Shown here: positions 603 to 46,800 of the stretch, piece by piece
Layout: each line of letters starts with the position of its first letter
How positions within the stretch are numbered: the stretch's first letter is position 1
Assembly (NCBI RefSeq): GCF_900149705.1
Contig: NZ_LT703001.1
Span: 3,094,001-3,158,000 of the forward strand
DNA from: Sphingorhabdus sp. Alg231-15
Lineage (GTDB): Bacteria; Pseudomonadota; Alphaproteobacteria; Sphingomonadales; Sphingomonadaceae
DNA length: 64,000 nucleotides
Reading direction: 5' to 3'
Position numbers and translations under genes: made by a program
Notes under the pieces: model-generated
Database searches by the model: none
Seen by the model: only the letters and a program-made list of their open reading frames with translations
What the model was told of the DNA's origin: nothing

Positions 603-1118
603 CTACGCGCCCTTATCCATCAATTCGATCAATCGAAGCATTCGGTCGCCGGCGACATGCACCATATCGAGCAATCGCTCGTCCAGTTCGTCATCCGCAA
701 TGCCGCCCCCTGCGGCCAGTGTGGTTGTCGTGCGCAGACGGTCAGACAAGAAAGTTGCCAGCGCCTTGTAAAAGCGCGCAGCAAAGGACGTATTCTGTTC
801 CAGTTCGCGGGTCAGGGCTTCTCGCGGCACGGCCAGCAGGCGGCATGACTCCGCCGCCACCACATCGGTCTCCGGCGGGCGACTCTCGACAAAAGACATT
901 TCGCCGGCGACATCACCGATGCCAAGTGAGGCAACTGTTGTGCCGTTGCTCAGGCGGACTTCCATTGCGCCCTGCGTTACAAAATAGAGCGCGTTGACTT
1001 TTACACCTGCCCGGATGAGATTGTCTCCGGGACTGGCTTCGACAATCTTACCCAATTTTGAAAGCGCGAGCACATCTTCCTCGGTCAGATCGCCCAAAAT
1101 ATACAAGGATTTTCGCAT
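603..1118 (-). CDS. Cyclic-nucleotide-binding domain protein of the peptide export operon
   Basis: A 171-residue protein made almost entirely of one CAP/cNMP-type beta-roll (residues about 8-120), followed by a helical tail. GDVAGEMSF corresponds to the phosphate-binding cassette (usually GE[LMF]), but the Arg that normally contacts the cyclic nucleotide phosphate is not evident in ESRPPETDVVA, so ligand binding is uncertain. There is no DNA-binding helix-turn-helix. It is the last gene of the operon, 3 bases after the ABC transporter stop, with an AGGA box before the ATG. Such domains accompany NHLM-type exporters as fused or separate subunits, so a role as sensor or regulator of export is likely. 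That role is inferred from context. Confidence 0.75.
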   Translation of the reverse strand: MRKSLYILGDLTEEDVLALSKLGKIVEASPGDNLIRAGVKVNALYFVTQGAMEVRLSNGTTVASLGIGDVAGEMSFVESRPPETDVVAAESCRLLAVPREALTRELEQNTSFAARFYKALATFLSDRLRTTTTLAAGGGIADDELDERLLDMVHVAGDRMLRLIELMDKGA

Positions 1119-1121
1119 ATC

Positions 1122-3647
1122 CTATTCCTCCATCAACTGACGTTTCGCGAGCGAGGCAAAGCTGCCATCCATCGCCATTAACTCTTCATAGCTTCCCTGT
1201 TCGGCAATCTTGCCCTTCTCGAGCACGAAAACCTTGTTGGCATTTTCGATTGTTGAAAGTCGGTGGGCAATGGTTATCCGGGTGACGGCAAGGGCGTCCA
1301 GCGTAGCGGCGATCTGTGCTTGACTGGCATTATCCAACGCGCTGGTGGCCTCGTCGAAAAACAGCAGATTGGGCTGTGACACAAGTGAACGCGCGATCAG
1401 GATGCGTTGCCGTTGACCGCCCGATAGCACCGCTGCGCCCTCCGTAATCGGGGTGTGAATGCCCATCGGGAAATAGTCGAGATCGGACGCCAGTCCGGCA
1501 CTGGCTGCGGCGGCCATACATTGTTCCAGACCCGCGTCATGGGCCCCGCGAATATTGTCGATGATCGAGCCAGCGAAAAGCGAGCTGGATTGCATGACCA
1601 CACCGATTTGCGAGCGTACGCGTGCGGTATCCAGTTCGACTAGGTTTTGGTCATCGTAAAAAATCGAACCTTTGCCCGGTGTTTCAAAGCCGAGCAAAAG
1701 CCTGAGCAAAGTGGATTTCCCCGAACCCGAGCCACCGACGATGGCAACATGCGCACCGACGTCAATATCCAGCGATATACCGGACAGCACCGGTGCCAGT
1801 CCTTCACCATAGGCAAAAGTGACATCTTTCACGCTGATGCCGCCCTGCAATATGCCCGGATCAGCCTTGTTTACTGACAGTTCCACCGGAGCTTGCAATA
1901 TGGGTAGAGCGCGGTCGATCTGCGGCTGGGCTGCATAGAGTTCAATCAGCTGTGAAGAGAGGCTGACAAAGGCCCCCTGGAACGATCCGAAAGCGACAAG
2001 GAACGCGATGAACATGCCTGGTTCCAGTGCATCCTTTGCTAGAATTGCTACTGAGCCAAACAGGATCACCTGGGTCAAAGTTTGCCAACTGTCAGAGGTA
2101 GCCGCAGAATAGCCGGTGATGATCCCGGCACGGCGTTCCAGATCCCGCTCTTGCCCATAAAGGTCTGCCCAGCGCGACAAGGCCCGGTCTTCAGCAGCGG
2201 CAGTGCGGAGTTTCGCAACGGCACTAATCATTTCGAAGCTGACTTCGGCCAGATTACCATCCAGCGCCAATGCTTCGCGAACCAGAGGCATTTGGAGCGC
2301 ACGGGTCACGACTACGATCAGGATGTAGACGGTGATCAACAGAACCGAAATGAAAGCGAGACGGAGATCGTAGAAAGCCAAGACGAAGAAATAGAAGATA
2401 GAAAATACTACCGACAGACCAGCGGACAAGGCGATGGAAAGAATCAGAGACCGCATACCGTCAATCCCTGAGAGCCGCTGGTTGAGATCCCCCGCAGTAT
2501 ATTCGCGGAAGAACGAAGTGGGCAATCTCAGCAAACGATCAAACAGGGCAGTGGCCAGTCGGGAACCGGTTTTCCCCTGAATTCGGCTAACCGCGATGGC
2601 GCGGATTGCTGATAGTGCAAATGTCACCAATGCTGCGAGTACCAATCCGGCTCCGACGCCTATCAGCAAGGCCATCTCTCCAGCGGGTGCCAGATCGCTT
2701 AATATCCATCCGGTAGCAAGCGGGGTTATAATGCCAAGAAAGCCAACCAGGGTTGCCGCCAATGCGATGCTACGAAACTCGTCGAGATTTCCGCGAATAA
2801 CAAATTTGGCCAGCGCCCAGAAGCCGGTAACGTCCTCTGGCAACGGGGCTGACAGAATGTAAGCATGCTGGTTGAAATCGGTTTTGTTATCGGTGTCGAT
2901 TGGCCAGCCGCCTGCGGTCTGGTAACACCCCTTAATCCAAATCGCATTGGCAACCGCTCCGGTCTCTGCAAATTGCAGCAATAATGGTCCCTGATCATGT
3001 TCATACCAGTCCCCGGTCAGGGTAACGGACCGGGAAGACAGCCCAAATTGACGTGCCACAGCCGGCGCATCGTCAAACTCGTGTCCATTTCTAAATGATG
3101 GCGGTGAATCGGAATGAACATCAAGTGCTTTTGCGCAGTTGTGGATCGCCTCTGACAAGGGCTGCGTGGCGGCGATATCGCTTTCATGAACAGTATCAAC
3201 CACCGCCCTGGTTCTGCGTAGGCGCTCCAATTCTTCCGCATCGCGCTGCATCGCCCCTGTCGTAAGCGCTTGCTCCAACGCTTGATTGAAATCAGCAATG
3301 GACAGCGACATTTCCGGATCAATCGTTTCGCCAAGGGACGAAGTCACTAGTGATTTCCATTGTGCTACGGCGTCTTCGCCATCGCGATCCTCCACCTGTT
3401 CCAGTGTGAGCGGTTTCCGGACAATCAGAACAAAATGGGCGTTTGGCGAGGCAGCCGGAAAAATGGCCTCACCATCTTTGACTTGTGATAGAAAATACTG
3501 CCCGGTGGAAGATCGCAGATAAAGTTCCGCCTCTCCTTTAGCAATTTGAAACGGTAAGCCATCGCGATCACAAATCAGCGGCGGTCCAACATCAAAACAC
3601 GGCTTCTGTTTGTGCCCGTCACCAAAGTGAATCATTGCATCACTCAT
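1122..3647 (-). CDS. NHLM-type bacteriocin export ABC transporter, non-peptidase subunit
   Basis: An 841-residue inner-membrane ABC half-transporter. The N-terminal ~285 residues are a poorly conserved cytoplasmic region without C39 Cys/His motifs. An ABC_membrane domain with about six transmembrane segments follows, then an ATPase with Walker A GGSGSGKST near residue 637, signature LSGGQRQR and Walker B LLFFDEATSALD. The ATG at 3645-3647 is chosen because it follows the stop of the peptidase-ABC gene by one base, implying translational coupling; an upstream in-frame start would overlap that gene. Length and architecture match the second ABC protein of NHLM bacteriocin systems. It probably forms a heteromeric exporter with the C39 ABC protein and the HlyD adaptor. 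Confidence 0.88.
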   Translation of the reverse strand: MSDAMIHFGDGHKQKPCFDVGPPLICDRDGLPFQIAKGEAELYLRSSTGQYFLSQVKDGEAIFPAASPNAHFVLIVRKPLTLEQVEDRDGEDAVAQWKSLVTSSLGETIDPEMSLSIADFNQALEQALTTGAMQRDAEELERLRRTRAVVDTVHESDIAATQPLSEAIHNCAKALDVHSDSPPSFRNGHEFDDAPAVARQFGLSSRSVTLTGDWYEHDQGPLLLQFAETGAVANAIWIKGCYQTAGGWPIDTDNKTDFNQHAYILSAPLPEDVTGFWALAKFVIRGNLDEFRSIALAATLVGFLGIITPLATGWILSDLAPAGEMALLIGVGAGLVLAALVTFALSAIRAIAVSRIQGKTGSRLATALFDRLLRLPTSFFREYTAGDLNQRLSGIDGMRSLILSIALSAGLSVVFSIFYFFVLAFYDLRLAFISVLLITVYILIVVVTRALQMPLVREALALDGNLAEVSFEMISAVAKLRTAAAEDRALSRWADLYGQERDLERRAGIITGYSAATSDSWQTLTQVILFGSVAILAKDALEPGMFIAFLVAFGSFQGAFVSLSSQLIELYAAQPQIDRALPILQAPVELSVNKADPGILQGGISVKDVTFAYGEGLAPVLSGISLDIDVGAHVAIVGGSGSGKSTLLRLLLGFETPGKGSIFYDDQNLVELDTARVRSQIGVVMQSSSLFAGSIIDNIRGAHDAGLEQCMAAAASAGLASDLDYFPMGIHTPITEGAAVLSGGQRQRILIARSLVSQPNLLFFDEATSALDNASQAQIAATLDALAVTRITIAHRLSTIENANKVFVLEKGKIAEQGSYEELMAMDGSFASLAKRQLMEE

Positions 3648-3648
3648 C

Positions 3649-5799
3649 TCACGCCTCCAGCAGACGGGCATAGGCACCCTCTTCCTGGAGCAGGCCGCTA
3701 TGCGTTCCGCGTTCGATAATCTGACCGCGGTCTAGGACGATGATTTCATCGCAATCACGAATGGTCGAAAGCCGATGCGCAATCACGATGCAGGTCAACC
3801 CGCGCCGTCGGATTGCCTCCATCACCTCAAATTCGGAAACCGGGTCAAGCGCACTGGTCGCTTCATCCAGGATGATGACTGACGGATTAGTGGCCAGCGC
3901 CCGGGCAATCTCGAGGCGCTGTTTTTCACCCCCTGAGATATTGGTCGCACCGGATGCAATCGGCGCTTCATAACCGCCTGGCCAGGCCATGATCCGGTCG
4001 TGAATCGCAGCGTCTGTCGCGGCCTGAATCATATCCACATCGCCGATGCTCTTGTCCCAAAGCGATAGATTGTCGCGCACTGTGCCGTTGAACAGCATGA
4101 CATCCTGCCGAACGAAGGCAAGCCGGGAAGCCAGCACATGGCGCGGCCATTGTCGCCTCGCCCGTCCGTCAATCTCTATCTGTCCGGCTTGTAGATCGAC
4201 CAACCCGCCGATCATTTTGCCTACCGTTGATTTACCAGATCCGGAGGCCCCAACGAGTGCGATCCGCTGACCTGGCGCGATGTCTATAGAAAGACTATCG
4301 ATCAGTGGTGGATCAAGGGGATTGTAGCCAAAGCTGGCCTCCACCAGCCGCACTGATCCTTTGGGTAACCTATCAATATCAACGATTTCCTCCCCTTCAA
4401 ACGCCGGATCAACCTGCTGGTCCAGTGTATCATCAAGGCGCCCCAGAAATGTGCGCAATTGCTGCAATTCCGAGCCAAAGGAGGCCAGTGCGGTGATCGG
4501 TCCTGAAAAGCTCATCGCCAGTGCCTGATAGGCGACCAGCTCACCTAGAGTGAAATTGCCCTGCATCACCATATAACCGCCGCCAATCAGGGTCGTCAGC
4601 ATGATGAAGGTCGAGAGCAGGGCTGGTACCGGCCCGGTCCATACCTGTACGGCGGTCGCCTCTTGCACGCCATTGATCGTCTTCGCCTGCAGCCCAGTCC
4701 AGCGGGTAAATAGCATATTCTCGCCGCCGGATGCTTTGTAGGTTTCAATATCCTTGAGCCCTGCAATCCGGGCACCCATCAGCTTGCCTTGATCGATTGA
4801 AACCTTGCGGTATTTCTCGGCAATGGTTGCGGTTGTGTAGAGCAAAATGGCGATATTGAGACTGGCAAGGCCAACGATGATCAGTGTCAACGGCACGCTA
4901 AAATAGAGCAAAACGATCAAGTAGAAGATCGCAAGGAGCAGGTTGATCGCCGCCTGAATCATCTGTTCAGATAAGAGGCTCACCAATCCTTCGTTGAGCC
5001 GGACGCGGTCGGCAATCTCACCAGTAAAGCGTTGTTCGAAAAAATTTATTGGCAGCCGGATCATATGCTGGAGTAATTGGAAGCCTGTCCTGCCTTTCAT
5101 CTCGGCGCCCAGCCGGACCAGAGAAATTTCTTGCAATGCGATCAAACCAAATCGAAGCACGGCGGTTATCGTCATTCCTATCAATAGCGGCCACAGCCAG
5201 TCATCAAGCGACCGGACAAGAACATAATCGACAAAGATTTGCGTGAAGAAGGGAATGACAATCCCCGGCACCACCAGAGCCAGGCTGACCAGAAAAATGA
5301 ACAGCAATCCGCCGCGATAGTCTTCGACACGGTTGATTAGTGAGACAAACATGGAAGGTCGGTCATCGCCTCTGACAAAATCTTCCGTTGGCGCGAAGGT
5401 CAGCACTACCCCGGTATAGCCGAGCGCAAATTCCTCCATCGGCTCGGTGCGATGACCCGATGCGGGGTCGTTGATGTAAACTTCACCATCTACAATGCCT
5501 TCGACGACCAGGAAGTGGTTGAAATTGACAAAAGCAATGATCGGGAAATTTAGATCCTCCAGATTTTCTGGTTCAACTTTCAGTCCCTTGCTTTCCAGAT
5601 TATATTTACGCGCAGCTTTTAGAATGTTGGAGGCCTTTGCCCCATCACGCGAAATACCGCATTCCCCGCGCAGTTCTTCCAACGGAACGTAACGATCATA
5701 AGTCCCTAAAATCATAGCCAAAGATGCCGCACCACATTCTGCTGCTTCCATCTGCAGGATGGTAGGCGTTCGTGGGGGTTTCTTTCTGAAAAAGTTCAT
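3649..5799 (-). CDS. NHLM-type peptidase/ABC transporter (C39 bacteriocin-processing exporter)
   Basis: A 716-residue exporter with three modules. An N-terminal C39 peptidase has the catalytic triad visible as Cys22 (AAECGAASLAMI), His95 (FNHFLVVEG) and Asp111 (INDPASG). A transmembrane domain covers about residues 160-440, and an ATPase carries GASGSGKST near residue 513, ISGGEKQR and VIILDEATSALD. C39 domains cleave leader peptides after a double glycine during export, which fits the ten precursors upstream that end their leaders in VTGG, VSGG or AGG. All catalytic residues are present, so it should be active. It lies 9 bases after the HlyD gene in one operon. Confidence 0.93.
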   Translation of the reverse strand: MNFFRKKPPRTPTILQMEAAECGAASLAMILGTYDRYVPLEELRGECGISRDGAKASNILKAARKYNLESKGLKVEPENLEDLNFPIIAFVNFNHFLVVEGIVDGEVYINDPASGHRTEPMEEFALGYTGVVLTFAPTEDFVRGDDRPSMFVSLINRVEDYRGGLLFIFLVSLALVVPGIVIPFFTQIFVDYVLVRSLDDWLWPLLIGMTITAVLRFGLIALQEISLVRLGAEMKGRTGFQLLQHMIRLPINFFEQRFTGEIADRVRLNEGLVSLLSEQMIQAAINLLLAIFYLIVLLYFSVPLTLIIVGLASLNIAILLYTTATIAEKYRKVSIDQGKLMGARIAGLKDIETYKASGGENMLFTRWTGLQAKTINGVQEATAVQVWTGPVPALLSTFIMLTTLIGGGYMVMQGNFTLGELVAYQALAMSFSGPITALASFGSELQQLRTFLGRLDDTLDQQVDPAFEGEEIVDIDRLPKGSVRLVEASFGYNPLDPPLIDSLSIDIAPGQRIALVGASGSGKSTVGKMIGGLVDLQAGQIEIDGRARRQWPRHVLASRLAFVRQDVMLFNGTVRDNLSLWDKSIGDVDMIQAATDAAIHDRIMAWPGGYEAPIASGATNISGGEKQRLEIARALATNPSVIILDEATSALDPVSEFEVMEAIRRRGLTCIVIAHRLSTIRDCDEIIVLDRGQIIERGTHSGLLQEEGAYARLLEA

Positions 5800-5808
5800 C
5801 GGGCCGAC

Positions 5809-7092
5809 TTACTCAGCCCCTGACAAGCTATGACTAATCCGATTGCGCACTCCGGGCAGAACCACATCGATCATGGCTTTTTGTTCGACCACGATCTTAC
5901 CGGCCAACATCGTCCCCTTGGTCACCGGGCGCTCGGGCCCGCTAGAAGATGACCAGCGAAAACCACTGGGATTATTGGTGCGTTCCAGCCGAACCTTGAC
6001 CTCAATCGGCGGGGCGGTGGCGGATAGTTGCTCAACCAGTTGATCATTTTGCAGATATCTCCGCATGGCTTCCCGGCTCGCCGGAAGAGCACCAGCCGTG
6101 ATTACTTCACCTTTGATATGGCCGTACACTTCTTTGGCGGTGGTTGTCGGAACCAATTCTACCACCATACCGGGATCGATGCGTTTTCCTCCATCGGGAG
6201 GGACGAACAGCACCGCGTCAAAGCCGCCCTTTTCGGCAGCCCTGTTGGTACGCGCATCGATTGTCGCGATTGCCTCTCCCGGCGCGAGCACATCGCCCGG
6301 ATTGACTTTCAGTTCCAGTAAGCGGCCTGATTGTGGTGCGCGAATTAATATCTCATCATCGGTCTGGGCGCGCAGCTTTTCCAGCTCGCGGCGTCGTTCC
6401 TGGATCAGCTGGTTGTCCGCCAACCGAGACTGGTCGCGTCCATTACGCCGCTGTGCTGCTGCGACACCAACCTGCAATCGTTCCTGTTCCAGCTTGCGCA
6501 TATCGGCGCGGATGGAATCATTGAGTGCAATCACATTCATCAATTCTTCGCGGGTTGCGGCATTTTGTTCAACTAGCCCACGCAGGTTATTGGCGGTCTC
6601 TTCGCGCGTCACCAATTGACGACGCAACTCGGCCATGCGGGCGTTGACCGATGCCAGTTGACGCGCTTCGGCCCCGCCCAGTCGACCTTCTCCCCGGCGA
6701 AAAACCGATTCAGCAACACCGGCTTTCATCCGCGCATCGCGCAGGGCAGCTTCGGCAATCCGGATATCGCGTTCACGATTATCGCGGGTTAGCCGCGCAA
6801 TCACATCACCCTTCTGTACCTTTTCACCGGGTTCAACGAGTATCGCGTCAACGCGTCCCTGATATTGTACCGCAACTTCGCTCAGTCCGGCGGAATCGAT
6901 CATGATCCCTTGCGCATTGACCTTTATCGGTACACTGGCGACAAAACCCCAGATCACCGCAAATAATATGATCACAGCGGTTACGATCAGAAATAGCCAA
7001 TTGGTGGGCTTTACGAGACGCAATGGTTGATCCAGCCGGTCTGGACTCGCCATCCGGTCGATTGCTTCCTGCCTGAAAATCTGTCTGGCCAT
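5809..7092 (-). CDS. HlyD-family periplasmic adaptor (NHLM bacteriocin secretion protein)
   Basis: A 427-residue membrane fusion protein. A single transmembrane anchor at about residues 30-52 (NWLFLIVTAVIILFAVIWG) follows a basic N-terminus. A lipoyl/barrel half comes next, then a long alpha-hairpin rich in Arg, Glu and Ala (about 100-240), then the second lipoyl half (IRAPQSGRLLELKVNPGDVL) and a beta-barrel. It should bridge the two ABC proteins in the inner membrane to an outer-membrane channel, most simply the NodT-type protein encoded at 10765-12129. The position between the deiminase and C39 ABC genes and the length match the secretion protein of NHLM systems. The ATG start is well placed. 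Confidence 0.9.
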   Translation of the reverse strand: MARQIFRQEAIDRMASPDRLDQPLRLVKPTNWLFLIVTAVIILFAVIWGFVASVPIKVNAQGIMIDSAGLSEVAVQYQGRVDAILVEPGEKVQKGDVIARLTRDNRERDIRIAEAALRDARMKAGVAESVFRRGEGRLGGAEARQLASVNARMAELRRQLVTREETANNLRGLVEQNAATREELMNVIALNDSIRADMRKLEQERLQVGVAAAQRRNGRDQSRLADNQLIQERRRELEKLRAQTDDEILIRAPQSGRLLELKVNPGDVLAPGEAIATIDARTNRAAEKGGFDAVLFVPPDGGKRIDPGMVVELVPTTTAKEVYGHIKGEVITAGALPASREAMRRYLQNDQLVEQLSATAPPIEVKVRLERTNNPSGFRWSSSSGPERPVTKGTMLAGKIVVEQKAMIDVVLPGVRNRISHSLSGAE

Positions 7093-7159
7093 GCGCCTGG
7101 CGCTGCCTCCCCGGTTGGTGCGACCCTACCGTGATAAACCCCTCAATTCCTTGCTGAAT

Positions 7160-8233
7160 TCATCCACGTTTCAGCACATTTGTCAAACAATGCAGTCCTC
7201 CCAAATTTTCCGCAAGCCTTTGCCCGTCCGGAATCATCCGTACTTCATACCCCAAATTTGTCCAAATCTCCCGATTGGCTTCATCAGTTTTTGTCAATTC
7301 AGGCCAGTTATCATGGCCATATTCGGGCATCCACACGATATTTCCCTCGACATCCGAACACTGCACCAAAAGATTGTTCGAACTGGCATAGAACCATATC
7401 CGCATTTGTTCGTCGACATTGTCCATGTAGATCATGGGCAGCGGATTGCGGATGGCATCAAAACCGCGTGCCTTTAAGTCCGCAGCGATAGTATCAAACC
7501 TTTCCGCCAGCGCTAGCGGATGCAGCGGATCATGCAAAATCTGCGCGGCCATAGCCGGATCACCAACCAATATTCGTTCCCGGCCATCTGAACCCGGTCC
7601 GGCCGGGGTCATGAACATATCAATGTGAAAGATCGGCTGCCGGGTTTCCGGCTTGTTATGATAGTGAAAAACTTCCTGCCATTTTTCGTCACCGTGATGG
7701 ACCGAACGGCGCTCTTCAGCCGGACAATCGGGCGCGTCAATAGTGACTATTTCGCGACCGTCTTGCTCCAGCTCCGCTATCACTGCGCTATCAGCGCCGA
7801 CAAAGATATGATTTTCGCTGATCAGGAAATTACCAGCTTCAAACGGTTCTGCGGCATATTCAATAGGCGTCGAACCATGTTCCGCCAAGAGCGCCGGCAA
7901 TCGGTTATCCTCTCGGCGTTCAATCGAGGGTGTTGCCAGCAGCATTTTCTGTTCGTCGGATTTTGCTCCTGCCAGAAACAGGTCACAGGCCCAGCTTGTC
8001 ATGGCTGCATCCCCGGCGTCCAATATGATCATCCGTTCCCGCTGGTTATCTGGAATGTCCCAGTAGTCGATTCCTACCTCTGCTCCCGTTTGCACCAACA
8101 GTGACACAGACGTTTTGGACGGCAAGCTATTGATCAGCGCGCTATAAACAGCCGAAAAAATTTGGGCTTCATGTTCCGGCACGAATAGCAGAACATGCTC
8201 TATTGCGCCGTCGATGCTGTTCAAAAGGTGCAA
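7160..8233 (-). CDS. Peptidyl-arginine/agmatine deiminase superfamily enzyme of the peptide cluster
   Basis: A protein of about 357 residues in the guanidine-modifying superfamily (agmatine deiminase, bacterial PAD, amidinotransferase). Visible motifs are WACDLF at 81-86 (family W-x-R-D), AGNFLISENHIFVG near 133-146 (family GGN...G), HIDMF with His203 and Asp205, and GGLHCLT near the C-terminus with candidate nucleophile Cys349. The Arg of W-x-R-D is replaced by Cys and the first Gly of GGN by Ala, so substrate contacts differ from agmatine deiminases. The best in-frame start is TTG at 8231-8233, 11 bases after the last precursor stop; no good ATG exists. The gene sits between the precursors and the exporter, so peptide arginine deimination before export is the simplest role. 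That role is inference. Confidence 0.72.
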   Translation of the reverse strand: MHLLNSIDGAIEHVLLFVPEHEAQIFSAVYSALINSLPSKTSVSLLVQTGAEVGIDYWDIPDNQRERMIILDAGDAAMTSWACDLFLAGAKSDEQKMLLATPSIERREDNRLPALLAEHGSTPIEYAAEPFEAGNFLISENHIFVGADSAVIAELEQDGREIVTIDAPDCPAEERRSVHHGDEKWQEVFHYHNKPETRQPIFHIDMFMTPAGPGSDGRERILVGDPAMAAQILHDPLHPLALAERFDTIAADLKARGFDAIRNPLPMIYMDNVDEQMRIWFYASSNNLLVQCSDVEGNIVWMPEYGHDNWPELTKTDEANREIWTNLGYEVRMIPDGQRLAENLGGLHCLTNVLKRG

Positions 8234-8244
8234 GACAAAAACCG

Positions 8245-8427
8245 TCAGTTCTGCAAAATCTTTTTGCCTTTGATCACAACATCACGCGATGCTTTCGCTC
8301 CGCCCGTTGTGACACCCTTGCTGTTTCCAACAACGCTGTAGGCACCAAACAGCTCCTCGGTCGCGGCACCACCGGAGACTCGGTCAAGCTGCTTCGCGCT
8401 CAGTTCCTCAGTTTTCTTGTCGGCCAT
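8245..8427 (-). CDS. GG-leader secreted peptide precursor (most distal of the ten)
   Basis: A 60-residue precursor. The leader of about 20 residues has the family pattern, ending KQLDRVSGG. The 40-residue core, AATEELFGAYSVVG and onward to KKILQN, is unlike the other cores and lacks the shared C-terminal block. Its ATG shares one base with the TGA of the preceding precursor (TGATG), so the two are translationally coupled. The core has one Arg. Leader cleavage by the C39 exporter is predicted after GG. Confidence 0.8.
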   Translation of the reverse strand: MADKKTEELSAKQLDRVSGGAATEELFGAYSVVGNSKGVTTGGAKASRDVVIKGKKILQN

Positions 8428-8627
8428 CAGATACCACTCCCGCCGCCTTCTGCGACAACCCGTTTGGCGCGAACGCCGCTATTGGGTTGTGCAGTGCCGT
8501 GTATCTTGGAGCCGGGCTTAGCGGTTTTCACTATGCCACTATTCATTGCCGCACTACCATGGACTCCACCGGAAACTTGATCCAACTCCTCCACGTTCAG
8601 CTCATTTGATAATTTTTTCCCTGTCAT
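8427..8627 (-). CDS. GG-leader secreted peptide precursor with VVA-GGG-I C-terminus
   Basis: A 66-residue precursor. The ATG at 8625-8627 is chosen because it directly precedes the conserved leader (MTGKK...ELDQVSGG) and lies 13 bases after the previous stop; an upstream in-frame ATG would add 30 residues that overlap that gene and lack leader character. The core shares SAAMNSG and VKTAKPGSKIHG with the neighbour at 8641-8844 and ends VRAKRVVAEGGGSGI. The pair looks like a recent duplication that has since diverged near the end. Confidence 0.82.
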   Translation of the reverse strand: MTGKKLSNELNVEELDQVSGGVHGSAAMNSGIVKTAKPGSKIHGTAQPNSGVRAKRVVAEGGGSGI

Positions 8628-8640
8628 AGCTTCGATCTTC

Positions 8641-8844
8641 TCAAATGCCGTTGCCACCGCCTGATGCGACGACTCCTTTACTTTTGCGAATACCAACGTT
8701 GGGTTCTGCGCCGCCATGGATCTTTGAGCCAGGTTTGGCGGTTTTCACAACGCCACTATTCATTGCCGCACTGCCAGCCATGCCGCCAGTCACCTGATCC
8801 AGTTCATCCTCATTAAGCTCTTCGTTTTTTCTATCCGTCACCAT
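8641..8844 (-). CDS. GG-leader secreted peptide precursor with VVA-GGG-I C-terminus
   Basis: A 67-residue precursor. The leader ends EDELDQVTGG. The core starts MAGSAAMNSGVVKTAKPG and ends GIRKSKGVVASGGGNGI. A GGAG box lies 4 bases before the ATG. It is the closest relative of the 8427-8627 peptide. The core is Gly, Lys and Ser rich with no Cys, so disulfides and lanthionine-type rings are excluded. Confidence 0.83.
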   Translation of the reverse strand: MVTDRKNEELNEDELDQVTGGMAGSAAMNSGVVKTAKPGSKIHGGAEPNVGIRKSKGVVASGGGNGI

Positions 8845-8862
8845 GTTTCTCCACTGCGTAGT

Positions 8863-9072
8863 TCAGATTTCGCCATCGCCAGCTTGCGCGACGATTTGCT
8901 TTTTGGATTTGGACAATCCCCTTGTTGCGCGAACAGATGTTCCCTTGGTCGACCCGGACTTTAGATGACTGACTTCCAGATTGGCATAAGCATCATGGGA
9001 ATCAGTCGTTCCTCCGCCGGTCACTTTATCCAGTTCCTGCTCATCGAGCTCTTCGGGTACCTTGCCTGTCAT
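8863..9072 (-). CDS. GG-leader secreted peptide precursor with IVAQ-G-G-I C-terminus
   Basis: A 69-residue precursor. The leader ends EQELDKVTGG. The core contains YANLEVSHLK, shared with the 9588-9824 peptide, then SVRATRG, and ends KKQIVAQAGDGEI, almost the ending of the 9094-9324 peptide. It is therefore a mosaic of two neighbours. AAGGA lies 7 bases before the ATG. There is no Cys. Confidence 0.83.
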   Translation of the reverse strand: MTGKVPEELDEQELDKVTGGGTTDSHDAYANLEVSHLKSGSTKGTSVRATRGLSKSKKQIVAQAGDGEI

Positions 9073-9093
9073 TCCAACGTCCTTTTTCCGAAT

Positions 9094-9324
9094 TCAGATT
9101 TCGCCATTGCCAGATTGCGCAACGATTTGTGCTGGTTGCTTGCCGAACCGCTTGCGATCTGTGCCGGAGGTCAAATTCTTTTCGGTTTCGCCAATATATT
9201 TGCGGCTGCCCTGTTGCCCAACATGAGTCAGCTCATGGCCAAGCAGTTGCTTACCTGCAGCGCCGCCGGTCACTTGGTCAAGTTCCTGCTCGTTCAACTT
9301 GTTGGGGTCTTTCTTGTCATTCAT
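9094..9324 (-). CDS. GG-leader peptide precursor with HELTHVGQQ metal-binding-like motif
   Basis: A 76-residue precursor. The ATG at 9322-9324 has GGAGA six bases upstream and directly precedes the leader MNDKKDPN...ELDQVTGG; longer in-frame versions overlap the upstream precursor. The 55-residue core begins AAGKQLLGHELTHVGQQGS. HELTH has the HExxH form of zinc metallopeptidases and closely resembles the HELTHVVQQ motif of eCIS_core/DUF4157 domains. The peptide is far too short to be a full peptidase. It ends PAQIVAQSGNGEI, the block shared with the 8863-9072 peptide. Confidence 0.83.
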   Translation of the reverse strand: MNDKKDPNKLNEQELDQVTGGAAGKQLLGHELTHVGQQGSRKYIGETEKNLTSGTDRKRFGKQPAQIVAQSGNGEI

Positions 9325-9352
9325 CTTATCTCTCCACATCATAACCAAGTGT

Positions 9353-9571
9353 TCAGCGCTTGGGATCGGTACTTCCGCTCGGAGCAAAACTACGCGTAAT
9401 AGTCTCAGGATTATATTGAGCCGCGTTTGCTCCTTTGGATGTTGCCCCTGAAGTGGTCGTTAACTTGTCGCTGCCTTGCTGAACCGTGTGCGATAGCTCA
9501 TGCTGGACGCCGCCAGTGACCTGATCCAGTTCTTGCTCATTCAGCGCGTCGGAGTTCTTCCGGTCAGTCAT
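9353..9571 (-). CDS. GG-leader peptide precursor with HELSHTVQQ motif
   Basis: A 72-residue precursor. The ATG at 9569-9571 has GGAG seven bases upstream and begins the leader MTDRK...NEQELDQVTGG. The core starts VQHELSHTVQQGSDKL, a second HExxH segment very like the one in the next gene, here right at the predicted new N-terminus after leader cleavage. The remainder is Thr, Ser and Asn rich and ends STDPKR without the shared Gly-rich block. Confidence 0.82.
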   Translation of the reverse strand: MTDRKNSDALNEQELDQVTGGVQHELSHTVQQGSDKLTTTSGATSKGANAAQYNPETITRSFAPSGSTDPKR

Positions 9572-9587
9572 ATTATTGCTCCGCCGA

Positions 9588-9824
9588 TTAGATACTGTTT
9601 CCACCACCGCCGGCAACCACGCCCTTGGTCACACGAATGCCAACTTTGCTGCCAACGCGGATGCCAGCACCTTTGGCTACCCGGCCACCAACTTTGTCGG
9701 CCACACGAATACCTTTCGCACCGGTCAGGCTAGGCTTGATATGGCTCACCTCCAGATTGGCGTGGCCACCGGTCACATGATCCAGTTCGTCTTCGTTCAG
9801 TATTTCGGTTTTCTTGTCAGTCAT
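9588..9824 (-). CDS. GG-leader precursor with tandem Gly-Ile-Arg-Val core repeats
   Basis: A 78-residue precursor. Two in-frame ATGs lie six bases apart; the second (9822-9824) is preferred because GGAGA lies six bases before it. The leader ends EDELDHVTGG. The core opens HANLEVSHIKPSLTGAKG, then runs through a repeat of the form GIRVxxKVG or GRVAKGA, with three GIRV copies, and ends TKGVVAGGGGNSI. It is the most basic and most repetitive core of the set and would carry the most arginines available to the deiminase. Confidence 0.83.
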   Translation of the reverse strand: MTDKKTEILNEDELDHVTGGHANLEVSHIKPSLTGAKGIRVADKVGGRVAKGAGIRVGSKVGIRVTKGVVAGGGGNSI

Positions 9825-9902
9825 TATCATTCTCCGTGAAATCTAAATCGCTTCCACCCAGTTTTCGGTGAGCCTGGGAATATCAGGAAAGTCGCTGCCT
9901 GA

Positions 9903-10115
9903 TTATTCGTCTTCGAACACCCGTTCCATGCCTTTGGGCGTAGGACGCTTAACGCCGCTGTTCGATGCCAAGTTACCCTGTGCCTTGCCTCCATCACTTG
10001 TCCGGGCCGACCCATAAGTAAGCGAAACATGTTCTCGATATTCGTGCTTACCCGCTCCGGCAACCTCATCCAGCTCTGCTTCATTCAGCTCTTCGGTTTG
10101 TTTTTTATCGGTCAT
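9903..10115 (-). CDS. GG-leader-like precursor ending RPTPKGMERVFEDE
   Basis: A 70-residue precursor. The second of two in-frame ATGs is used (GGAGA plus six bases). The leader ends EAELDEVAGAG: the strict double Gly is replaced by GAG, as in the forward-strand precursor at 12461. The core contains HEYREH and finishes with KRPTPKGMERVFEDE, nearly identical to the ending of the 10406-10576 peptide. The 78 bases to the next precursor hold no gene. Confidence 0.78.
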   Translation of the reverse strand: MTDKKQTEELNEAELDEVAGAGKHEYREHVSLTYGSARTSDGGKAQGNLASNSGVKRPTPKGMERVFEDE

Positions 10116-10150
10116 ATCCATTCTCCTGTCCGGCGATATTGGGCTCAGTG

Positions 10151-10345
10151 CTAGAATTTTATTTTCTCGTAGTTGAGCGAGAAGTTTTCGGTTGGAACCG
10201 TGTCAGCCGCACTTGTTGTGTCCTTTTTTCTTGGCGGGCCCGCCTCGCGAACGGACTGAACCGCGGGCAGCAACAACGCAACACCGCCAGTTACCTGATC
10301 CAATTCAGCCTCATTCAATTCTTCTGTTTTTGTTACATCGGTCAT
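10151..10345 (-). CDS. GG-leader secreted peptide precursor with hydrophobic core start
   Basis: A 64-residue precursor. The ATG at 10343-10345 has AGGAG seven bases upstream. The leader ends EAELDQVTGG. The 43-residue core begins VALLLPAVQSVREAGPPRKK, the only hydrophobic core N-terminus in the set, and ends SLNYEKIKF. It shares no block with the others outside the leader. Confidence 0.8.
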   Translation of the reverse strand: MTDVTKTEELNEAELDQVTGGVALLLPAVQSVREAGPPRKKDTTSAADTVPTENFSLNYEKIKF

Positions 10346-10405
10346 TTTCAATCTCCTGATTTCGTTAGTGTCGATCACGTTAGCGTGATCAAACAGGCGG
10401 TCGCG

Positions 10406-10576
10406 TCATTCGTCGTCGAATACCCGTTCCATGCCTTTGGGGGTGGGACGTATGATTTTACCATTTCCCGATTTTTTGATCATTGCTGGTTCGTCTCCCA
10501 TGACGCCACCGACGCCTCCGGCTACTTCATCCAGTTCTTGTTCGTTCAGTTCTTCTTTTTTTGTACGGTCTGTCAT
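10406..10576 (-). CDS. Short GG-leader precursor, first gene of the peptide operon
   Basis: A 56-residue precursor that a length cut-off at 60 would miss. ATG at 10574-10576, TGA at 10406-10408; AAGGA lies eight bases before the ATG. The leader (MTDRTKKEEL...ELDEVAGG) is a clear family member. The core is VGGVMGDEPAMIKKSGNGK followed by IIRPTPKGMERVFDDE, the ending it shares with the 9903-10115 peptide. It is the first gene after the predicted operon promoter. Confidence 0.8.
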   Translation of the reverse strand: MTDRTKKEELNEQELDEVAGGVGGVMGDEPAMIKKSGNGKIIRPTPKGMERVFDDE

Positions 10577-10710
10577 CGCGAAAATCCTTGTCGCTTGTTG
10601 TGTTTGCAGACCCTTTATTGATCAAGTTACCACAAACGCCTGTGTTGCGTCTCACAGCCGCGATTAATTTCTGATCATCGATGTCGTATTTTTCCTAACA
10701 TATTGAAATT

Positions 10711-10738
10711 GTTATAGGATAAAATCGCCAATCAGCAA
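10711..10738 (-). promoter_or_regulatory. Candidate sigma-70-type promoter of the peptide operon
   Basis: On the reverse strand TTGCTG (10738-10733) is followed after 16 bases by TATAAC (10716-10711). It lies about 135 bases before the first precursor ATG, immediately after the terminator of the channel gene. It is the only good pair in this gap. This is prediction from consensus only. Confidence 0.4.
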
Positions 10739-10766
10739 AAATTTGGATGGACGCAGCGCGTCCATC
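10739..10766 (-). terminator. Rho-independent terminator of the outer-membrane channel gene
   Basis: A perfect 9-bp stem, GATGGACGC at 10746-10754 and GCGTCCATC at 10758-10766, has a 3-base loop. On the reverse strand it is followed by CAAATTTTT. The stem begins within the stop codon of the NodT/TolC gene. It implies that the precursors are transcribed from their own promoter rather than by readthrough. Confidence 0.65.
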
Positions 10767-12129
10767 ATTCAAAGCCGCCGCCTAGTGCGAGGTGCAAATC
10801 GACTCGGTTGAACAATCGGTCGCGGCGTGTAGACAGATACGCACTACGGGCGTTGAGAGCGCGTTGCTGTGTTTCCAGCACATTAAAAAACGGTTCAATC
10901 CCAGCGCGATATCTTTTGGTAGAAATATCAAGCGATTGCTCCGCCGCATCCGCCGCCACCAGGAATGCCGCCTCCCGCGCCGCCAGATTGCTATCTATCG
11001 CCAGTGCGGTTTCCACTTCAAACAAAGCCTGTAGCGCAACCTCTGCATAGCGTTCCAAGGCTTCATCTTGTTCACCCTCACGCTGATCCACTTGCGCGCG
11101 TAAACGCCCGCCTTGGAAAATCGGTTGCAACAATTGTCCGGCAATCGACCATATGAAAAAGCCGCCATCAAACAGATTGGCAAAGCTACCCGCCGATGTT
11201 CCCGCTGAGCCACTAAGAGAAAGACTGGGCAGGAATGACCGCTTCGCCGCATCCAACCGGTAACCGGCCGCCGCAAGCTGCAAATCCGCCGCCACAACAT
11301 CTGGTCGCCGCGAGAGTAGTTCAGACGGCAGGCCGGTTACCGGGACCGGTGGCAGTGCGGGTAAGGCATCAGCTAGCTCAATCTGGCCATCGGGATAATC
11401 GCGCAGGATAATCTCCAGCTGCCGGACCAAGCGCTTATAGTCCTCCTGCCGCGCCTCCAGCCCACCGCGCGCGGTCTGCTGGTCGGTGATGACCAGGGTT
11501 TTTGAACTGAGCGGCGATATCCCGGCTTCAACACGCAGATTGAGCTGACGAGTCAGCTCGCCATAGGTTTCGAGCACCCGGCTCGAGAGCGCAATCTGCT
11601 GTTCTGCCTCAATCACCGCGAAATAGGTTCGCACGGTTTGTGCCGCCACCGCTTGCTGCACGGCACGCAGATTTGCAGCAGTGGCCAGAAAGTCCGCACG
11701 GTCGGCCGCATTGAGAGAAGATAAGCGCTCCCAAAGATCCGTCTCCCAACCGACGTTGACTGACAGGTCCAGCGTATGGAGTATCCCTGTGTTGCCCGCA
11801 CCGCCACGACCAACGGCGCCTAGTCCCGCACTGACCTGTGGAAGCAAATCCGCCCGTGAAATCCGCGCCTGCGCCCGCGCTTGCTCCAGCCGCGCCATGG
11901 ATTGACCGATAGAAGGATTTTGCAAGACCCCTTCTTCCACCAGGGTCGTTAAACGGAGATCACCGAAACTTTTCCACCAGCGCGTGTCAATCGCCCCGGA
12001 CTGGTTGGATCCCACGAATTGTGAGGGAATATCGCGAGCCACATCGGAGACAGGTTTGGGAGCAGCCGCACAGGCCGAAACCAAAACCATTGCAATCGCA
12101 CTGGGTATTACCCGAAATTTAGCGCGCAT
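10765..12129 (-). CDS. NodT/TolC-family outer-membrane efflux lipoprotein
   Basis: A protein of about 454 residues. The ATG at 12127-12129 gives a lipoprotein signal peptide (MRAKFRVIPSAIAMVLVSAC) with lipobox VSAC. The mature part has the duplicated outer-membrane-efflux fold: long Ala, Gln, Arg and Leu rich helices, RWWKSFGD near the start, and SRRPDVVAADLQLAAAGYR, typical of NodT channels. It should form the trimeric exit duct for the HlyD/ABC exporter encoded downstream. A GGGAG box lies ten bases upstream of this ATG. NodT proteins also serve RND pumps, but no RND gene is in view, so pairing with the peptide exporter is the best reading. Confidence 0.85.
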   Translation of the reverse strand: MRAKFRVIPSAIAMVLVSACAAAPKPVSDVARDIPSQFVGSNQSGAIDTRWWKSFGDLRLTTLVEEGVLQNPSIGQSMARLEQARAQARISRADLLPQVSAGLGAVGRGGAGNTGILHTLDLSVNVGWETDLWERLSSLNAADRADFLATAANLRAVQQAVAAQTVRTYFAVIEAEQQIALSSRVLETYGELTRQLNLRVEAGISPLSSKTLVITDQQTARGGLEARQEDYKRLVRQLEIILRDYPDGQIELADALPALPPVPVTGLPSELLSRRPDVVAADLQLAAAGYRLDAAKRSFLPSLSLSGSAGTSAGSFANLFDGGFFIWSIAGQLLQPIFQGGRLRAQVDQREGEQDEALERYAEVALQALFEVETALAIDSNLAAREAAFLVAADAAEQSLDISTKRYRAGIEPFFNVLETQQRALNARSAYLSTRRDRLFNRVDLHLALGGGFE

Positions 12130-12460
12130 AACGGCGCATCTCCCACCAAGCACCGCGACCTCTATATTAGTTCATAATCATCCACACCAGATGTGCCAGT
12201 TCAATCTTTAAATGCGGGTTAACCGTGGCGTCAGCTATAGGGATTAGGCAGTCATGACCACTTTAAACACGAAATCGGGCATTGAAATCAAAAATCTGCG
12301 GGATAGAGTCGTTTCGTTCCTATATTTTCGGTATTGCTATCTTCATAGTGCTTTCGGTCGACAAAGCGAAATACGCAGTTGTGATATGCCTCACCTACGG
12401 ATTCGCCAATATACTGCAATGAAGCGACCGTAGGCGATCACAATATCCAGGAGAACGACA
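12130..12460. other. Divergent intergenic region with a possible ORF remnant
   Basis: This lies between the channel gene and the forward-strand precursor. At about 12300-12422 a forward frame reads FRSYIFGIAIFIVLSVDK and continues to ANILQ before TGA, which resembles the end of a small membrane protein. The ATG at 12254 is in another frame, so it may be a frameshifted relic. Promoters for both flanking genes should lie here, but none is clear. Confidence 0.3.
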
Positions 12461-12721
12461 ATGGTTGACAAAAAGGGACCACAAGAGTTGGAAGATCATG
12501 AGCTTGATCAAGTAATCGGCGCAGGTGACAAAGTACCTTATCCTAACACCAGTGACAGTGGTGGAGATGTCAAGGTCTCTGGGAAATCAAAAACTACAGT
12601 TGAAGGCGACGGTCCGAGTAGTGGATCTGGTGTAGCAAAAGGTGGGTCAAAATCGTCGGGAGGTTCCTCCACTTCATCTGGTACAGTGACGGTAGCGAAC
12701 AATCCGACCACCCGCTATTAG
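12461..12721 (+). CDS. Eleventh precursor, divergent, Ser/Gly-rich core
   Basis: An 86-residue protein with AGGAG seven bases before the ATG. The N-terminus MVDKKGPQELEDHELDQVIGAG is recognisably the leader of the reverse-strand precursor family, ending GAG like the peptide at 9903. The core of about 64 residues is dominated by Ser, Gly, Thr and Lys (SKSSGGSSTSSGT) with a single Arg close to the C-terminus (TTRY). It lies on the opposite strand from the cluster and downstream of the divergent region, so it has its own promoter. It probably uses the same exporter in trans (inference). Confidence 0.72.
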   Translation: MVDKKGPQELEDHELDQVIGAGDKVPYPNTSDSGGDVKVSGKSKTTVEGDGPSSGSGVAKGGSKSSGGSSTSSGTVTVANNPTTRY

Positions 12722-43852: not shown

Positions 43853-46800
43853 TTAGAATTCTCCCGCTATGCCAAACCGTGCGGCAGTATTTTTGCCACC
43901 CGCAAAAGATACGCCGCCAGTCAGGGCAAACGGATTATCCGTATCTAGGCGATGAGCGACCGAAAAACCGATTGCTACCTCGCCGCGGTAAACAGATCCG
44001 TTCGCGGTATAACTGGTCTTGCCGGGTGTTGAAGGCAAAGGTGCTGTCGTCAGTGCAACGGCAGCTGCGATGCCCCGATTGGTTTTGCGTCGTTCCATCG
44101 ATGCCAGATCAAAAAGCTCGGTGACTTGACCCTCCAGCCCAGTAACTCTGCCCCCGAGATTAACGAGGCCGCCGACATCGAGAGAAGTGGCGCCGAGATT
44201 GCCAGCGGCATCAGTGGTCACGAGACTGAGTGCACCTTCTTGTGCGGCCTGACTGGCTGCTGAAGTAATCCCGGAGATACGGACCGTTCCATTCTCGCCG
44301 CCCAATGCGATCAGGTTATCGCGATCGGCAACAGCACCGGGGCCGATGGCAACAGCGCCATTGCCTATGGCCGAAGCGCCGTTGCCTAGGGCGATGGCCC
44401 CATTGCCATTGGCCACGTTGAGATTGCCAATGGCCACCGCACCTGTTCCGATTGCGTTGTTGTCGGCCCCCAGCGCCACAGCGCCGGTGCCGGTTGCGAA
44501 ATTCGGATCACCAATCGCCACAGCGCCATTGCCGGAAGCGACATTGCTGGAGCCGATAGAGACAGCCTTGCCATTTATTGCCTGCGCGTTCGCACCAATG
44601 GCGACCGACTCTTCGCCGCTCGCTTCGCTGCCTGTGCCGATGGCCAAGGCATCCTGACCGGTGGCGCTGGCGCCTGATCCGCTGCTGTTGCTATCGAAAT
44701 AAGCCAGTTCAGCGCTATTGGCATCGGCCTGAGCCAGCGCCCGGTTGGCATCGGTTTGCGCCTGCATAGCCTCCGTGCGCGCGGTATCTGCGCTGGCCTG
44801 TGCCTTGACCGCATTTTCAAAAGCCTCATCCGCCTTGGCCTGCGCATCAACCACACCCGCCCCGGCCTGATCGGCGGCCAGCTGCGCAGCGCGGGCATCT
44901 GCACGCGCGGTGTCGGCAGTCGTCTGGGCGGTTGCCGCGTTGGCAAAAGCCTCATCCGCACGGGTCTGCGCTGCCGCGGCTTCCGTGCGCGCCTGATCGG
45001 CCGTGGCCTGCGCATTGGTCGCCGCATTTGCCACAGCATTAACCTGTCCGACATTGGCCGCGTCGGTATTTTCGGTTCCCGCCGCAACGTTAGTGATTTG
45101 CCGTTCAGCGCCGGTACTCCCAACCGAAACCGTGTTGTCACGGTCGGCCACAGAAGCTGCGCCCAGCGCTACCGAATTCGCTGCTGTTGCCTGTGCATCA
45201 CTGCCTAACGCAATGGCGTTTTCACCCGACGCCAGAGCGCCATCAGAATCCGGGTCGCCCCCGTCGCCGCCAATCGCTATCGAGCCATTGGCTTCAGCGT
45301 TACTGGAGGTACCGACAGCAATAGTCTGTCTGCCTGACGCGGTGCTTTCAAAACCCATTGCAGTGCTAAAAAGCCCACTGGCTTCACTATCAAAACCGGT
45401 CGCGGTACTGCCATCTCCGCTGGCCTCACTATCGCTTCCTGTAGTCGTGCTGAAGTCGCCCGATGCCTGGCTCCGGGTACCGATAGCTGTACTCCGCTCG
45501 CCAGAGGCAGTGCTGCGAAAGCCATTGGCTGTCGCCCGGAAACCACTGGCCGTACTTTGGAAACCCATAGCGGTACTGTCTTCCCCGATGGCCACTGCGC
45601 CCGAGCCAAAGGCGCTGGCGCTTTCACCCGAAGCCAGTGCGCCGTTGCCAACCGCAGTCGCCTGTTCACCGCTTGCTTGGCTATTGTCACCAATGGCTGT
45701 GGTGCTGCCCGCCGAGGCCACTGCCCCGTCGCCGCATTCAAGTGTGTCAGCAGGATCATCAGCGGTGCCCGGGATACCGTCAGGACCGGGATTGTTGCGA
45801 CAGCCACTTGCGCCCGCCACTGCTATGGAGGCGTTGAGCTGTGCGAGATTGACAGCATCAGTGGCTTGCGTGCCCGCTGCAACATTCACGATCTGCCGCT
45901 CTGCACCCACTGCGCCGACCGACAGGGTTTCCTTACGATCAGCGAAGGAGCCAGCGCCCAATGCGATGGAGTTAAACGCCGTCGCCTGCGCATCATTGCC
46001 GAGGGCTACCGCATCCCCGCCGGAAGCAACTGCACCAAGAGTATCATCGTCCCCACCATCGCTGCCGATCGCTATAGACTGGTCACCGGTGGCATCGCTG
46101 TTTACGCCGATGGCCGTGCTGTTTAGACCGGCTGCGCTGCTACTATTTCCAAGTGCGGTGCTACGGTCACCGGCGGCATCACTGAAAGACCCGATGGCGG
46201 TGCTGCGATCACCGGCGGCATCACTGCTTGATCCGATGGCCGCACTGTTGTCACCGGTGGCGTCACTAAATGAGCCGATGGCGATGCCTTCTACACCGCT
46301 GGCCTCACTGAAATCGCCAATTGCAATGCCCTCTTCACTGCTGGCATTACTGAATGAGCCAATGGCGATCGACTGACGACCCCTGGCCTTACTGAAATCG
46401 CCAATGGCGATGCCCTCTATACCGCTGGCCTCATTGAAATTGCCAATTGCAATGCTGCTTTCACCGCTCGCCTCACTCCTTGTACCGATTGCGGTGCTGC
46501 CTTCACCGCTGGCCTCACTCCTTGTACCGATTGCGGTGCTGTCTTCACCACTGGCCTCACTGCTGGCCCCAAAGGCGCTCGCTTCGTTTGCGCTTGCGAC
46601 GGCATCATTGCCAACAACCGTGCTGTCCCTCGCTGAAGCAACGGCACCGAGAGTATCAGTATCCCCTCCATCCGAGCCTATCGCGATTGATCTTGCACCT
46701 GTGGCCTCACTGTTATTCCCGATGGCCGTGCTGTTTAGACCGCTTGCCGCGCTATTGTCGCCAATTGCGGTGCTGAGAGCCGCTGAGGCCGCTGACCCAT

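Follow-up and report, generated by a model that had tools for sequence, protein, structure and literature searches.

A double-glycine-leader peptide array with an NHLM-type exporter and a deiminase-like enzyme in Sphingorhabdus sp. Alg231-15, with resemblance of some cores to parts of foreign proteins

We analyzed a window of 64,000 nucleotides from the genome of Sphingorhabdus sp. Alg231-15 (NZ_LT703001.1, positions 3,094,001 to 3,158,000), in which small peptide-precursor genes stand in a row ahead of genes for a deiminase-like enzyme and for an exporter of the NHLM type. In minus-strand order, starting at 12153 and finishing at 603, the locus comprises a TolC/NodT-type channel gene, ten tandem precursors with double-glycine (GG) leaders (W1 to W10), the 357-residue enzyme, a HlyD-type adaptor, a C39 peptidase-ABC exporter (C39-ABC), a second ABC subunit, and a protein of the cyclic-nucleotide-binding (cNMP) type. 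The precursor array occupies 8245-10576; its genes are separated by -1 to 78 bases, and the genes from W10 through the cNMP-type gene by -29 to 67. The original prediction, made from the sequence alone, had described ten adjacent precursor genes followed by enzyme, HlyD, C39-ABC, ABC, and cNMP genes, and all of these are present on the minus strand within 603-10576. It had missed the TolC/NodT-type gene, which lies 188 bases upstream of W1 on the same strand, and an eleventh precursor (W11) on the plus strand beyond it; nor had it noticed that cores contain foreign motifs. Below, G000 is the genome of the window, G1273 a sister genome, and G362 and G267 two further genomes with such precursors; precursors labeled W, N, and M belong to G000, G1273, and G362, respectively.

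The ten array precursors share a leader of ~20 residues with the pattern ...L(N/D/S)xx(E/Q)LDxV(T/S/A)G(G/AG), the start codons of W2-W6 and W9 having been assigned by resemblance to the remaining leaders. A 27-column leader profile recovers ten tandem copies in G000 and one more at 12461-12538 (E 3.9e-13 to 1.5e-9), matches that are circular because the profile was made from those same precursors. Non-circular support for the short GG leaders that had been predicted comes from the NCBIfam double-glycine signal TIGR01847 (curated cut-off 15.7 bits), against which five of the 11 window precursors were scanned: W2, W4, and W8 pass it, and W5 (14.8 bits) and W6 (13.7 bits) fall below. The W11 orthologue sits on another contig of G1273 (L139 3178-3453). 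Arg is present in the core of all 11 window precursors, as the original prediction held for its ten, and in 40 of the 43 cores assembled from four genomes with leaders removed; Cys occurs in one of the 43. Core boundaries were set by pattern, so that the M9 and M10 "cores" retain leader residues and those of N5 and N6 are short by two or three. Many cores are rich in Gly, Lys, and Arg and have no identified source, and ten precursors compared with PHROGs gave a single weak family of unknown function. The cores of W4 and W6-W9 (window 8427-9824) end in VVAxGGGxxI or IVAQxGxGEI, those of W1 and W3 (9903-10576) in PTPKGMERVF(D/E)DE, and similar ends occur in G1273 and G362.

The proposal of an NHLM-type exporter is upheld by TIGR03794 and TIGR03796, both over cut-off. 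The C39 domain retains ECGAA, NHFLV, and NDPA motifs around Cys, His, and Asp, residues whose role in the peptidase we assume. TIGR03797, though below cut-off, is the best-scoring family for the second ABC subunit, and the cNMP-type protein reaches 101.3 bits against TIGR03896, under the cut-off of 161. The TolC/NodT-type protein is probably the outer-membrane part of the exporter; TolC-like open reading frames (ORFs) occupy the equivalent place in G1273 (L138 3361-4821) and G362 (L010 13014-14525), as judged by position and end sequence. The window has the same three transport proteins as the NHLM/NHLP bacteriocin export cassette (PMC2887384). It differs from that cassette in that the NCBIfam scan of five precursors turned up no nitrile-hydratase- or Nif11-like leader, in that neither a cyclodehydratase nor a LanM came up among the six larger proteins of the operon that were scanned, and in that its TIGR03797 and TIGR03896 matches remain below cut-off. 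The distinctness that had been claimed for such precursors is reduced by a published set of 290 cyanobacterial double-glycine precursors, of which 121 belong to NHLP or N11P (PMC3140520); according to the cited part of that study, numerous double-glycine precursors, many from outside NHLP and N11P, lie beside the same C39-ABC, ABC, and HlyD set, as in the window. Unlike the window, that part of the study mentions no deiminase and no motifs of contractile injection systems (CIS) or DUF1559.

A minority of the cores appear to resemble foreign proteins at the protein level, a likeness first spotted by eye and supported by the searches that followed. With Pfam at E up to 1, counted per family, eCIS_core of extracellular CIS (eCIS) matched five of the 43 cores (best E 3.5e-5), DUF1559 one (3.5e-8), and Tox-PAAR-like one (2.4e-5). 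Weaker matches were returned by FG-GAP (two cores, 0.015), gp19 (two, 0.016), PG_binding_3 (one, 0.02), and Hcp (one, 0.17), as well as by families that have no place in the interpretation given below: DUF4438 (two, 0.048), Peptidase_M60 (one, 0.039), and DNA_binding_1 (one, 0.32). A control of one shuffle per core gave four unrelated families with one match each, the best at E 0.05. As a precursor, W6 matches eCIS_core (PF13699) at E 1.9e-5 over residues 20-40, its 25.2 bits exceeding the gathering score of 22, and M13 matches DUF1559 over cut-off (E 1.1e-7); the matches of M17 to Tox-PAAR-like (E 6.3e-5) and of M8 to gp19 tail tube (E 0.0072) lie under cut-off. M13 lies in G362, as does M17, which is found near a GG-leader precursor, M16, placed directly before a radical SAM/SPASM gene (L118:3512-5850).

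Such modules recur in differing company. The eCIS_core-like module is combined with adaptor-like (W5), AAA-like (W6, N6), and FG-GAP-like (K2) pieces, several of them assigned by eye, and in M5 it stands near the C-terminus. The DUF1559-like part of W2 was assigned by its resemblance to M13, and a FSLNYEKIK profile built from W2 and two related pieces placed Hcp first in PDB (9qpe, E 0.041), followed by beta-galactosidases (1.5). For a two-sequence NLENAWP profile, the best four of five PDB matches (E 6.8e-4 to 0.37) were three phage tail protein entries and All3324, which we take to be CIS tubes; the fifth was a Fab chain. W5 has a 17-residue match to a Streptomyces eCIS operon protein that none of 200 shuffles equaled, a match that is not independent since the record was originally found with the orthologue N5. 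Among plasmids, the QYNPETITR module matched only one protein, weakly (E 8); it has 221 residues and is encoded in a Streptomyces eCIS operon, with DUF4157 and baseplate genes on either side. In that operon, the DUF4157 protein carries IAHELAHVVQ and the ATPase KWVGETSKNV. Of the four plasmid records matched by the HELTHV-YIGETEKNL piece of G1273 (E 3 to 9), two are annotated DUF4157, which is weak alone. In Smith-Waterman comparison with one eCIS operon, five of 43 cores reached p ≤0.01 and nine ≤0.05 (0 and 2 with reversed proteins); three of those five share the adaptor module used to find the operon, so that K2 and W6 are the only independent ones. HELTHVxQQ, LLLPAVQxxREA, NLENAWP, and YNPET are recognizable across genera in varied combinations, which suggests that the motif itself is kept. 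Searched singly, the W2 core had no PDB match and the W6 core four unrelated ones, and the Hcp-, FG-GAP-, and tube-like pieces gave no named match among plasmids. We found no report in the open-licence literature of CIS or DUF1559 motifs in the cores of exported precursors.

One core at least, that of M13, is a fragment captured from a foreign gene, as its DNA shows. Over 110 bases, this DNA shares 76.4% identity with a Planctomyces DUF1559 gene (E 3e-13); the figure for a Singulisphaera DUF1559 gene is 72.7% (E 8e-8). The M13 frame stops at a TAG, at a point where the planctomycete gene reads on in frame. Of the 918 records found at E up to 10, only three among the matches listed, all planctomycete, cover at least 80% of the query; the remainder are short partial matches. 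Synonymous recodings with matched third-position GC reached the real score in 1 of 500 and 0 of 500 cases, and tblastn with the core found three planctomycete DUF1559 proteins (E ~1e-5). The families that the core motifs resemble, those of eCIS and planctomycete DUF1559 proteins, were sought as Hcp, DUF1559, eCIS_core, and gp19 in G000, G362, and G267, with G1273 outside the search, and the only over-cut-off members were precursors, W6 and M13. Hcp gave no match and DUF1559 gave M13 alone; eCIS_core returned 11 (E up to 10), with W6 alone over the cut-off and K2 and M5 among those under it; gp19 gave M8 (0.077) and one G000 match (0.456), both under cut-off.

Between G000 and G1273, the leaders have a nonsynonymous divergence (dN) of 0.146 and a synonymous divergence (dS) of 1.40 (226 codons), and the cores a dN of 0.317 and a dS of 1.21 (518 codons; dN/dS ~0.26), ratios that are rough since dS is near saturation. 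The excess of dS over dN argues that the cores are translated and constrained, though less so than the leaders.

The enzyme of the operon has no Pfam or NCBIfam match at E 0.01 and nothing meaningful among PDB sequences, and its relationship to PF04371, the Porphyromonas-type peptidylarginine deiminase (PAD)/agmatine deiminase family, runs through intermediates. A tblastn search of plasmids found six records, two annotated "agmatine deiminase family"; the one from Vibrio matches the window enzyme at E 9e-17 and PF04371 at 39.5 bits (cut-off 25), and the G1273 orthologue reaches 16.7 bits (E 0.0047), under the same cut-off. Residues D84, H203, D205, N286, N287, and C349 are invariant in all eight aligned sequences, the window enzyme included, an Asp, His-x-Asp, Asn, Cys pattern that we take to be the catalytic one of PADs. 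PF04371 also covers agmatine deiminases. The prediction of a guanidine-modifying type of enzyme holds, and we assign the protein to the PAD_porph superfamily, most likely as a peptidyl-arginine deiminase. Because of its position in the operon and its residues, it likely deiminates the precursors. A change of Arg to citrulline is reported for citrulassin lasso peptides, a ribosomally synthesized and post-translationally modified peptide (RiPP) class with a PAD (PMC12971885); enzyme and exporter differ there, and no lasso enzyme is among the six larger window operon proteins scanned. The enzyme profile gave 16 weak PDB matches (E 0.37 to 1.7) headed by vinculin and other unrelated proteins, with the agmatine/peptidyl-arginine deiminases 2cmu and 3hvm behind these at E ~0.8. 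Structure prediction with one relative had a mean pLDDT of 43, the Vibrio relative had one PDB match, unrelated, and no relative was found in viral contigs.

Relatives of the enzyme occur in other settings. They lie downstream of YcaO and TfuA genes in Rhizobium daejeonense (L009:974-4507, annotated) and in genome G403 (L038:6626-10049, by eye), each locus with an upstream ORF of 136-143 residues that has no Pfam match at E 0.01; these loci are possibly a second RiPP class with this enzyme family, and we found no report of an agmatine deiminase in a YcaO/RiPP context in the open-licence literature. G000 itself encodes a second paralogue of 463 residues directly after a full-length PAD (PF03068, E 2.1e-126, with a PAD middle domain), in a run of radical SAM, trypsin-like protease, PAD, and paralogue genes (G000:C1 near 2685396; L005:4480-9969). 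On an Aureispira plasmid (L007:7854-14374), a relative is flanked on one side by a Cmr CRISPR module and on the other by four TIR-domain genes, perhaps a defense setting; in Paenibacillus polymyxa (L006:7845-10983) one adjoins a DNA/RNA non-specific endonuclease, and in Vibrio maritimus (L008:409-5837) one is near an S-type pyocin gene.

Precursors were found by the leader profile at E 1e-5 in three of 397 genomes of a family sample (G000, G1273, G362), and the enzyme in two of 396 genomes of an order sample (G000, G362) and, by its profile at E 1e-15, in two of 398 of a phylum sample (G000, G403). The whole operon, enzyme included, stands in the equivalent place in G1273 and G362 (mostly from ORF order and sequence; the C39-ABC of G362 was assigned by family), and the window enzyme is identical at 265 of 357 positions to that of G1273 and at 194 of 357 to that of G362. 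The enzyme is present, between precursors and exporter, in three of the four precursor-bearing genomes, and these three represent two genera. The fourth, G267, from a third genus, has a TIGR03796 exporter over cut-off, a HlyD and a second ABC subunit recognized by eye, and three precursors with DUF1559-like and eCIS_core-like cores, two found with the leader profile and one through its eCIS_core motif. A MethyTransf_Reg-type methyltransferase adjoins the locus in G362 and G267; none was found in the stretches of G000 and G1273 searched. Precursors of G362 are dispersed across the genome, and some cores (Nx) are unmatched in the array of the sister genome. Among 33 class-level NHLM matches besides G000, 20 were inspected, on stretches some of which end at contig ends; they showed no deiminase and, by pattern and by eye, no short-GG-leader precursor. 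Of 17 order-level matches besides G000 and G362, five were retrieved and three of them read; the other two, the short contigs of G073 and G036, gave no match to the deiminase profile. At an NHLM-like locus of G070 (L032:12971-14314), a 447-residue protein, far longer than the window precursors, has a short GG-type leader by eye. Elsewhere in the window, 43853-48481 encodes a 1542-residue protein of SxASGxxSTAxG-type repeats, YadA-like by eye.

Table 1. Genes of the peptide locus, in window coordinates
Feature	Position	Strand	Length (aa)	Description	Support
Precursor W11 (eleventh)	12461..12721	+	86		Leader profile E 9.2e-12 (circular)
TolC/NodT-type outer-membrane channel	10765..12153	-	462		TIGR01845 260.4 bits (cut-off 210); PF02321
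Precursor W1	10406..10576	-	56	Core end PTPKGMERVFDDE	Leader profile E 5.7e-11 (circular); orthologue N1
Precursor W2	10151..10345	-	64	Core LLLPAVQSVREA (DUF1559-like) and VPTENFSLNYEKIKF (Hcp-like)	TIGR01847 16.0 bits
Precursor W3	9903..10115	-	70	Core end PTPKGMERVFEDE	Leader pattern, leader profile, G1273 comparison
Precursor W4	9588..9824	-	78	ANLEVSHIKP module and Arg-rich GIRV repeats	TIGR01847 16.1 bits
Precursor W5	9353..9571	-	72	HELSHTVQQ (eCIS_core-like by eye) and QYNPETITRSFAPSG (CIS adaptor-like)	Streptomyces eCIS match
Precursor W6	9094..9324	-	76	LLGHELTHVGQQ (eCIS_core) and KYIGETEKNL (AAA-like, by eye)	PF13699
Precursor W7	8863..9072	-	69	ANLEVSHLKS module, VRATRG	Leader pattern, leader profile, G1273 comparison
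Precursor W8	8641..8844	-	67		TIGR01847 16.3 bits
Precursor W9	8427..8627	-	66	Internal ATG picked by leader likeness	Leader pattern, G1273 comparison
Precursor W10	8245..8427	-	60	TEELFGAY module	Leader pattern, G1273 comparison
Deiminase-like enzyme	7160..8233	-	357	Putative catalytic D84, H203, D205, N286/N287, C349	Residue alignment; intermediates
HlyD-type adaptor (NHLM_micro_HlyD)	5809..7092	-			TIGR03794 261.8 bits (cut-off 156.2)
C39 peptidase-ABC exporter (NHLM_micro_ABC1)	3649..5799	-			TIGR03796 928.8 bits (cut-off 853.3); PF03412
Second ABC subunit (NHLM_micro_ABC2-like)	1122..3677	-			TIGR03797 685.6 bits, under cut-off 709.4
Cyclic-nucleotide-binding-type protein of bacteriocin transport	603..1118	-			PF00027 59.1 bits (cut-off 27.5)

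The reading we favor, at a little under an even chance, is that of an exported, probably deiminated peptide family whose cores are drawn from foreign genes and which most likely acts as decoys on other bacteria. The locus would make and export a multigene family of peptides of ~35-65 residues. The C39 domain of the exporter, judging by the families involved, would cut the ~20-residue leader after GG or GAG, with HlyD and the TolC-type channel forming the rest of the export route. In three of the four genomes, core Arg would become citrulline through the action of the PAD_porph-superfamily enzyme before the peptides leave the cell. Several cores are mosaics of short signature stretches from foreign proteins, some of them belonging to CIS (eCIS_core, gp19 tail tube, Hcp, PAAR-like, tube adaptor) and some to planctomycete-type DUF1559 and FG-GAP proteins; profile matches are strong for eCIS_core, DUF1559, and PAAR-like and weaker for the other families. 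Once released, the peptides might act on other bacteria as decoy or interface peptides, in competition with the proteins that they imitate, a role that is a guess prompted by what the cores copy. The more elaborate scheme, in which a peptide arsenal is renewed by capture and recombination of gene fragments from the injection machines and surface proteins of other bacteria, deiminated, and exported as decoys or interface blockers, we regard as rather unlikely.

A number of results weigh against the favored reading. Among the 11 precursors of the window, only the W6 core is shown over a Pfam cut-off; the likeness of W2 and W5 comes from weaker profiles and from inspection by eye, and eight have no identified source. 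The AAA-like profile had no PDB match and the adaptor profile one, unrelated, and the Hcp-like and FG-GAP-like pieces, searched alone, found nothing relevant. Short pieces escape the genome search, as its Hcp part missed W2, and sub-threshold eCIS_core matches also fall in ordinary longer frames (e.g., 561 residues in G267, E 0.025), with weak ones in 10 of 14 control genomes. DNA-level capture is seen for M13 only: twelve other cores, each compared with one Streptomyces or one Planctomyces reference, give little or no signal (recodings at or above the real score: M15 18/500, M5 32/500, ten others 61 to 441), and blastn of the G362 array and K1 found no match to any source family. Core Arg is kept at 17 of 24 positions between G000 and G1273, compared with 38 of 51 for Lys and 319 of 534 for all residues; a special conservation of core Arg was rejected, as it is no higher than that of Lys. 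Finally, G267 has related cores and no deiminase homologue at E 0.01, so that the modification is not universal among loci with such cores. The original prediction of a distinct class marked by citrullination finds partial support in the placement of the enzyme, and overstates citrullination as the defining modification; a locus with cores of the same type and no deiminase, which it had named as grounds for refutation, is nearly what G267 presents with its exporter and three precursors. Overall, its observation is confirmed and its interpretation partly supported.

The leader and the exporter are of the bacteriocin kind, and the peptides may instead be ordinary class II-type bacteriocins or microcins with Arg modification, for which foreign segments serve as mere raw material for membrane-active or receptor-binding cores. 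The many Gly-, Lys-, and Arg-rich cores without an identified source and the unmatched Nx cores would fit this explanation, which we nonetheless consider unlikely; against it stands the persistence of HELTHVxQQ, LLLPAVQxxREA, NLENAWP, and YNPET across genera in differing combinations. An equally improbable alternative concerns the enzyme, which may act on agmatine or free arginine, or in self-protection, and not on the peptides, its operon membership having some other explanation. The inclusion of agmatine deiminases in PF04371, the enzyme relatives outside recognized peptide loci, and the G267 locus that lacks the enzyme all point in this direction; what points the other way is that three genomes, from two genera, have it placed between precursors and exporter, and that its relatives lie behind YcaO and TfuA genes in two further genomes.

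Neutral birth and death, whereby leader cassettes pick up passing DNA fragments and yield peptides without a sequence-tied use, would accommodate both the DNA-level capture in M13 and the scattering of G362 precursors over the genome; the core dN/dS, the persistence of modules between genera, and the compact operon retained in three genomes make it a distinctly improbable account. Least probable of all is that the peptides are surface-assembling or signaling products whose strand and helix segments co-assemble on the producer's own surface. This account could draw on the adjoining TolC-type channel gene and on the tail tube, Hcp, and DUF1559 segments, whose parent proteins self-assemble or are pilin-like, but segments of the eCIS_core, FG-GAP, and PAAR-like kinds are at odds with it.

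The enzyme represents an unnamed branch of the PAD superfamily tied to peptide loci, both in this operon and next to YcaO-TfuA genes. Should the motifs prove to matter, the cores would name their own targets, and peptides of unknown activity would become directly testable.

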